Assembly (NCBI GenBank): GCA_003008705.1
Contig: PDUO01000019.1
Location: 430,552 to 494,551, forward strand
Origin: Pezicula radicicola
Taxonomy: Eukaryota > Ascomycota > Leotiomycetes > Helotiales > Dermateaceae
Direction of reading: 5' to 3'
DNA: 64,000 nucleotides
In this document: one piece after another, positions 42,563 through 42,717 of the stretch
How positions within the stretch are numbered: the stretch's first letter is position 1
How the letters are laid out: each line of letters opens with the position of its first letter
Made by a program: the position numbers and the translations under genes
Notes under the pieces: generated by a model
Database searches by the model: none
Told to the model about the DNA's origin: nothing
Seen by the model: the letters and a program-made list of their open reading frames with translations, nothing else

Positions 42563-42567
42563 AAAAA
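42563..42567 (-). terminator. Pol III terminator of the tRNA gene
   Basis: A run of five T on the minus strand starts four bases after the tRNA 3' end, as expected for RNA polymerase III termination. Confidence 0.7.
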
Positions 42568-42571
42568 GAAA

Positions 42572-42717
42572 TGATCAGGCTGGGGCTCGATCCCAGGACC
42601 TTCTCGGTATTATGTGTTAACATTGTTAACGAGATGCTGTTGAATTATTAGTTGACTGCTGAGAAGTGTTGTGAAATGATGGAGGAACTCACTGATAACC
42701 AACTACACCACCCGACC
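42572..42717 (-). tRNA. tRNA-Val (anticodon AAC) with two inserts
   Basis: Read on the minus strand from 42717. The acceptor arm GGTCGGG pairs with CCTGATC (two G-U pairs), discriminator A. The D-arm and A box TGGTGTAGTTGG are canonical for fungal tRNA-Val. The T arm CTGGG/CCCAG encloses loop ATCGAGC (B box). The anticodon stem is TCTCG/CGAGA; the loop reads TTAACA...C with anticodon AAC. A 16 nt insert (42608-42623) lies after position 37, the normal place of nuclear tRNA introns. A second insert of 56 nt (42637-42692) splits the 3' side of the D stem. With both removed the molecule folds as a standard tRNA-Val. A T5 terminator follows. It could be a functional gene needing unusual processing or a recent pseudogene; the intact stems favour function. 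Confidence 0.8.
42637..42692 (-). other. Spliceosomal-looking 56 nt intron inside the tRNA D arm
   Basis: Starts GTGAGT, has CAACTAATAA (branch-site-like CTAAT) about 15 nt before the end and finishes CAACAG. Length and signals match the mRNA introns of this window. Exact removal joins TTATCA to CATCTCG, which restores the usual TTATCAC of tRNA-Val. Confidence 0.65.

Follow-up and report, generated by a model that had tools for sequence, protein, structure and literature searches.

Candidate mRNA-type introns in nuclear tRNA-Val genes of the fungus Pezicula radicicola

Nuclear tRNA introns and mRNA introns are usually regarded as separate worlds, served by separate enzymes. The closest described systems to the one presented here are mRNA-type introns in genes for other non-coding RNAs. 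For the U6 gene of S. pombe such introns go back to Tani and Ohshima (1989, 1991; see PMC10484740), and for ascomycete and lichen rDNA to Bhattacharya (2000; see PMC8527467); the latter article also describes the removal of lichen rDNA spliceosomal introns from Pol I transcripts in yeast. A second set of precedents concerns ectopic tRNA introns, which are described for Cyanidioschyzon merolae and the nucleomorph of Guillardia theta (PMC4090602, PMC9602550). C. merolae is also treated in PMC3978253, noncanonical introns are treated under archaeal tRNAs in PMC8450103, and archaeal-type introns in nuclear tRNA genes are spoken of in the literature, in each case as far as the available portions of these sources go. 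Our literature search, which covered mostly titles and the starts of abstracts and reached subscription papers poorly, turned up no report of spliceosomal introns in nuclear tRNA genes. This agrees with a preliminary description of the present DNA, which had named fungal U6 genes as hosts of mRNA-type introns and had known of no established equivalent in a nuclear tRNA gene.

Here we analyse a tRNA-Val(AAC) gene in a stretch of 64,000 nucleotides from Pezicula radicicola (the window, that is, the whole stretch of DNA analysed), which carries a 56-nt insert in addition to a short anticodon-loop intron. We put at about 0.82 the probability that this insert is a U2-type spliceosomal intron inside a working nuclear tRNA-Val gene, removed besides the anticodon intron. 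What the sequences offer lends strong support to the more general reading, an mRNA-type intron in a tRNA gene: four genes of two isoacceptors, with inserts at three sites, splice signals and intact exons. That part of the preliminary description stands, backed by the recurrence of the inserts, their signals and an interrupted U6 gene in the same genome; removal by the spliceosome is a prediction, and reverse splicing, which that description proposed alongside a novel processing route, is a possible origin.

The tRNA-Val(AAC) gene of the window and its sisters

The architecture of the window gene and the coordinates of the related loci are given in Table 1. The fungus's own genome, 61,044,626 bases in 152 contigs, was searched, and the tRNA genes were compared within this one genome. 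In a protein search with the sirtuin of the window, the nearest named proteins are those of Coleophoma crateriformis and Phlyctema vagabunda, at 78% identity over 86% and 77% of the query, and both species belong to Helotiales, Dermateaceae; the top match has 72% identity over 100% of the query, and the fourth, named Armillaria, has 57%. On this one search the source is probably a helotialean ascomycete. The 146-nt window gene gave 12 matches in a DNA search, made up of itself, five insert-free copies and one copy matching over the full length at 78%. Query positions 1-25 and 82-146 are contiguous in the five insert-free copies; both pieces are 100% identical in L002-L004, and in L006 and L007 the short piece is identical at 100% and the longer one at 95%. 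As the two pieces stand back to back in these sister genes, the borders of the insert are fixed and cannot slide, and they read TTATCA/GTGAGT...CAACAG/CATCTCG. The comparison of sisters thereby confirms the minus-strand borders that the preliminary description had assigned to the 56-nt insert, together with the exact rebuilding of TTATCAC that it had claimed for removal of this insert; the 16-nt anticodon intron is present as described. The exons are identical over 74/74 nt between the window gene and the six other Val-AAC genes found. In all seven genes AAACAT stands immediately in front of the tRNA, with CAACA some 20 nt upstream. The window gene itself could be dispensable, given that five sisters in this genome do without the insert.

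The sixth sister, L005, is the full-length match, and its insert differs from that of the window gene: it is 64 nt long, reads GTAAGT...CTAAC...TAG and lies at 26/27, two bases further on. Within the 3.2-kb locus around L005 (C81, about 279-282 kb), the neighbours are a 5S rRNA gene and a tRNA gene (Lys-CTT by eye).

Table 1. Features of the window gene (positions in the window) and of related loci elsewhere in the genome (contig and position)
Feature	Position	Strand	Remarks
tRNA-Val(AAC) gene, 146 nt	42572..42717	-	two introns, different in kind, between three exons
Exon 1, tRNA positions 1-24	42693..42717	-	5' acceptor strand and most of D arm; 100% identity to five insert-free sisters
Candidate mRNA-type intron, 56 nt, at 24/25	42637..42692	-	missing in 5/7 Val-AAC genes found; splice signals
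Putative 5' splice site GTGAGT	42687..42692	-	of 56-nt insert
Putative branch-point motif CTAAT	42647..42651	-	of 56-nt insert; A to intron end 11 nt
Putative 3' splice site CAG	42637..42639	-	of 56-nt insert
Exon 2, positions 25-37	42624..42636	-	last part of D stem and 5' side of anticodon arm, with anticodon AAC
Anticodon intron, 16 nt, canonical 37/38	42608..42623	-	tRNA endonuclease type; identical in L002-L004, 15-16 nt in the other three sisters
Exon 3, positions 38-73	42572..42607	-	variable loop, T arm, 3' acceptor strand, discriminator A
T5 run, probable Pol III terminator	42563..42567	-	starts at +5 after the gene
Presumed A box TGGTGTAGTTGG	42699..42710	-	intact, upstream of 56-nt insert; motif read in the sequence
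Presumed B box GGGATCGAGCC	42584..42594	-	intact; motif read in the sequence
L005, sister Val-AAC gene	C81:280519-280671	-	matches over whole length at 78%
L061, tRNA-Val(UAC)	C3:1002804-1002960		Rfam tRNA search of genome
L064, tRNA-Val(UAC)	C113:28764-28916		Rfam tRNA search of genome
L069, U6 snRNA gene	C3:394362-394523	-	interrupted twice; T run at end
L068, diverged U6-like sequence	C146:17702-17803	+	without inserts

The behaviour of gene finders depends on whether the inserts are left in place. In the window, neither ARAGORN without introns nor Rfam at its gathering score finds a tRNA. ARAGORN in default mode with introns allowed likewise reports none in the unspliced window gene and draws a cloverleaf once the 56 nt are out, which agrees with the fold described earlier for the spliced form, as the T5 run does with the terminator. 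L005 behaves in the same way, with no tRNA unspliced by default and a Val(aac) cloverleaf after removal of its insert. ARAGORN names the spliced window gene Ile(aat), as it does L002-L004, since there are two possible placements for the short anticodon intron; for L005, L006 and L007, whose exons are those of the window gene, it gives the AAC reading. With the threshold relaxed, the unspliced window gene yields a false Asn(gtt), and unspliced L005 yields a Val(aac) whose intron measures 74 nt. At E up to 0.1, Rfam reports neither the unspliced window gene (in locus L001) nor the unspliced L005 gene, and the sister L002 scores 46.0 bits. Minimum-energy folds of the spliced forms with the anticodon intron kept give no clean cloverleafs, those of L005 and L064 being the worst, and they decide nothing.

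tRNA-Val(UAC) genes and the splice signals of the inserts

Two tRNA-Val(UAC) genes, L061 and L064, stood out among 57 Rfam tRNA matches in the genome (63 of 2516 candidates having been scored), and a DNA search with L061 recovered these two copies only. A pattern for the Val D arm, which a gene with a deviating D arm would escape, found nine genes, namely the seven Val-AAC and the two Val-UAC genes. Inserts are present in four of the nine tRNA-Val genes found, including both Val-UAC genes, and they occupy three sites. Both Val-UAC inserts lie in the variable loop at 47/48: that of L061 is 59 nt long (GTAAGT...TTAAT...CAG) and that of L064 is 54 nt long (GTAAGT...CTAAT...TAG). The two genes also have anticodon introns at 37/38, of 25 or 26 nt, which differ between them. 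Run by default on the unspliced sequences, ARAGORN gives a false Glu(ttc) for L061 and a false SeC(tca) for L064, and with the inserts out it gives Val(tac) for both. Rfam accepts the unspliced genes as tRNA at 40.6 and 39.0 bits respectively (gathering score 29), so that their match to a tRNA is independent of the removal of the inserts. In the spliced form they have a U.U mismatch at 27:43. The AAACAT motif is missing from both flanks, and CAACA is present in L064.

The exons of the two Val-UAC genes are identical at 73/73 positions, and their inserts agree in 43 of 62 aligned columns, with the splice signals kept in both. Unchanged exons beside drifting inserts in which the signals persist are what selection for splicing would predict; gene conversion of the exons could contribute to the pattern. 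Since both Val-UAC genes found carry inserts, tRNA-Val(UAC) probably depends on the spliceosome, and its production would probably need two different splicing machines. Among the 275 Val codons in eight mechanically chosen long ORFs, 63 are GTA and 53 are GTG. Should these two be its only genes, the cell would need the reaction for this tRNA; inosine-34 in tRNA-Val(AAC) might allow the latter to read GUA as well, so a strict need for the splicing of Val-UAC is not certain. Probe searches detected no Val-CAC gene, which does not show the absence of one. The furthest-reaching version of the proposal, in which tRNA-Val(UAC) would be made only via the spliceosome, GUA decoding would be tied to mRNA splicing capacity, and introns would have spread among the tRNA-Val genes by recent reverse splicing, is one that we put forward tentatively and consider rather doubtful as a whole.

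All four inserts begin with GTRAGT and end with YAG exactly at the exon borders. Among random segments of the window of the four insert lengths, a GTRAGT start has a frequency of 0.00059 and a YAG end one of 0.029, and a fraction of 0.040 hold a YTRAY motif whose A stands 10-14 nt before the end. The product of the three is about 7e-7 per insert, and the signals occur jointly in none of 400,000 random segments and in all four inserts, the YTRAY motif and the 10-14 limits having been set after the inserts had been seen. The distance from the branch A to the 3' end is 11 nt in the window insert (CTAAT), 12 in L005 (CTAAC), 13 in L061 and 13 in L064 (CTAAT); the L061 motif, TTAAT, deviates from CTRAY. 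The likeness to the mRNA introns of the window that was noted in the preliminary description holds up: frame joining yields 13 candidate mRNA introns in the window (1 and 0 in two controls), 46-103 nt long and of similar look. The insert lengths of 54-64 nt lie within this range and are far too short for a catalytic intron. In a larger, noisy set of candidates (37 versus 24 in a reversed control), the mode of the branch distance is 11-13 nt. A looser intron scan, with 105 hits against 68 in its control, was mostly noise and was replaced by stricter rules.

The inserts are also compatible with transcription by Pol III. The presumed A and B boxes, read in the sequence, lie outside all four inserts, and T runs of 5-6 start +5 to +14 after the four genes. 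TTTT, the Pol III stop, is missing from all four inserts and also from 14 of the 24 candidate mRNA introns of 45-75 nt, so that its absence is weak evidence, consistent with such transcription. In the route that we propose, Pol III would transcribe the tRNA-Val genes from A and B boxes outside the insert, through an insert lacking TTTT, to the T run downstream. The spliceosome would excise the GTRAGT...YTRAY...YAG intron of 54-64 nt, and the tRNA endonuclease and ligase would excise the separate anticodon intron at 37/38. The same route would serve L005 (26/27) and the two Val-UAC genes found (47/48). Transcription, removal, the order of the two splicing reactions and function are all predictions from the genome sequence.

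An interrupted U6 gene and the rival explanations

A parallel is seen in the same genome. A search for U6 found two places, L068 and L069 (47 of 4167 candidates having been scored). L069 is interrupted by a first insert of 63 nt (CATTTG/GTGAGT...CTAAT...TAG/GTCAATT), whose border was read by eye, the Rfam alignment placing the 5' stem of L069 inside this insert, and by a second of 53 nt (AGCATG/GTGGGT...TTAACAT...TTAG/GCCCCTG). The first insert holds an A-box-like stretch, TGGTCTAGTGG. As the two sequences stand, L068 scores higher in Rfam than L069 (76.9 versus 49.2 bits). The joined L069 matches the Rfam U6 consensus in 86/113 columns versus 75/106 for L068, and in 46/48 versus 42/47 columns of the U6 core. 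On this comparison L069 is taken as the probable main U6 gene, and L068 may be either a copy derived from spliced U6 or another U6 that is functional. The two mRNA-type introns of L069 suggest that Pol III transcripts are probably spliced in this fungus; if L068 is functional too, the U6 parallel is weaker.

Among the rival explanations, the one that survives best, albeit as an unlikely one, is that the insert-bearing copies are dead or dying tRNA genes whose inserts are never removed, and that the insert-free copies supply the cell. This would account for the five of seven Val-AAC genes found without an insert, and according to a review (PMC4090602) a eukaryotic tRNA gene with an insertion in its D or T arm, when it is one of many synonymous genes, is supposedly a pseudogene. 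But the exons show no decay (74/74 and 73/73 identical), a state that gene conversion could help to maintain, and both Val-UAC genes found carry inserts in a genome that uses the codons GTA and GTG. Moreover, T runs are retained downstream, the conserved upstream flank is retained in the case of Val-AAC, and the inserts hold splice signals and not random sequence.

Less probable again is that the tRNA splicing endonuclease cuts out the inserts, acting away from its canonical position as with the ectopic introns of C. merolae, nucleomorphs and Crenarchaeota. Introns outside 37/38, the D arm included, are documented in eukaryotic tRNA genes (PMC4090602 and PMC9602550), and each insert site allows three of the four central-helix pairs. 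However, none of the four inserts (16 registers) forms the full helix of four pairs, against one of three canonical controls (4, 3 and 3 pairs), a comparison that hardly discriminates, as 4157 of 20,000 random sequences reach four. The yeast enzyme cuts strictly at 37/38 (accessible part of PMC4033280), and the inserts lie away from that position, at 24/25, 26/27, 47/48 and 47/48. Endonuclease cutting also leaves the GTRAGT, YTRAY and YAG of all four sites unexplained. Insertion of a mobile element or of a self-splicing intron (group I or II) into the tRNA genes is very improbable. The insertions do vary in site and sequence, and group I introns interrupt tRNA genes of bacteria and plastids (PMC4033280), but Rfam reports no group I/II match in the window (gathering score) or in L001, L005, L061 and L064 (E up to 0.1). 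No insert was matched outside tRNA-Val genes in DNA searches that pass over common words and would overlook diverged copies; the inserts of the window gene and L061 were searched within their genes, and those of L005 and L064 on their own. Each of these explanations fits worse than a spliceosomal intron.

Origin, further cases and comparison with known systems

The spliceosomal reading leads to the question of origin. An insert in two of the seven Val-AAC genes, with identical exons and different sites, would favour recent independent gains over losses, and an origin by reverse splicing is possible. DNA searches of the genome, which diverged copies would escape, revealed no donor mRNA intron. 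When the inserts were aligned with one another, the window and L064 inserts outscored all 276 pairs formed from candidate introns of 45-75 nt, as did those of L061 and L064, which share a site; the score of the window insert against L005 and against L061 was reached by 0.7% of the 276 pairs, and L005 gave nothing against L061 or L064. These are six comparisons against a noisy candidate-intron background, and we read the similarity only as a lead towards possible spread between tRNA genes.

Searches for further cases gave mixed returns. Probes of 12 isotypes found 7 places in the genome. A probe of 18 genes of this genome gave 44 matches (40 of 84 candidates having been scored); no copy among the matches listed is split by an insert, and a few are short at the 5' end. 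The same probe gave a 35-nt partial match to positions 10-44 of tRNA-Arg(TCT) at C62:85318-85352 (minus strand), with two more Arg(TCT) matches on that contig. Two patterns combining splice sites with a B box recovered both Val-UAC genes and two other matches at chance level, the counts being 3 matches (controls 3 and 3) and 1 match (controls 2 and 4). Other isotypes with inserts may thus exist.

A pattern of a B box plus a T run, with at least 74 forward and 288 reverse matches (controls 28 and 23), was used to pick loci. Several tRNA genes of unusual build were seen in the genome. L119 (C47:841455-841640, minus strand) and L120 (C36:436510-436690, minus strand) have an anticodon-loop insert some 80 nt long with a second T-arm-like block, GGTTCGATCCC, inside it, which gives the look of a tRNA fragment nested within an intron; ARAGORN confirmed no full nested tRNA in either. 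L065 (C109:672923-673077, minus strand), Ile(UAU)-like by eye, has an anticodon-loop insert of similar length, about 80 nt, with a long stretch of complementarity between its two ends. L060 (C77:252794-252942, minus strand) has a long anticodon-loop insert, with 84 letters unshown in the Rfam alignment, and by eye a C in place of U33. L085 (C1:2021872 region, plus strand) is a Leu-type tRNA, by eye apparently without the first bases of the acceptor stem.

If the spliceosomal reading is true, tRNA precursors made by Pol III would be possible substrates of the spliceosome, and splicing would be linked to decoding. The gains of introns against sisters with identical exons would then offer a direct test bed for the origin of spliceosomal introns. 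Insert-bearing tRNA genes are easily missed or misnamed, as by Rfam and by ARAGORN in default mode, and more may exist elsewhere.

Comparison with the described systems places the tRNA-Val inserts as a probable extension of the known mRNA-type introns of non-coding RNA genes, those of U6 and rRNA, to nuclear tRNA. As in the U6 gene of S. pombe, a Pol III gene appears to be split by a short spliceosomal intron, and the U6 gene L069 of the present fungus has two. Unlike in that case, the hosts are tRNA genes, at least four in number and of two isoacceptors, each of which has an anticodon-loop intron too; furthermore, U6 works inside the spliceosome, whereas tRNA does not. The rDNA of ascomycetes and lichens likewise combines mRNA-type introns with a structural RNA and a transcript not made by Pol II, removal being known for rDNA and predicted here, but the transcript is Pol I rRNA there and Pol III tRNA here. 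With the ectopic introns of C. merolae and the G. theta nucleomorph, the inserts share a location in the D arm or at other sites outside 37/38. The C. merolae introns, in contrast, have been connected with the tRNA endonuclease and with bulge-helix-bulge motifs, and the available portions of the sources describe no GT-AG borders or branch points for the ectopic introns of either organism. Finally, the canonical 37/38 intron is itself present in each of the four genes, with the second insert at 24/25, 26/27 or 47/48.
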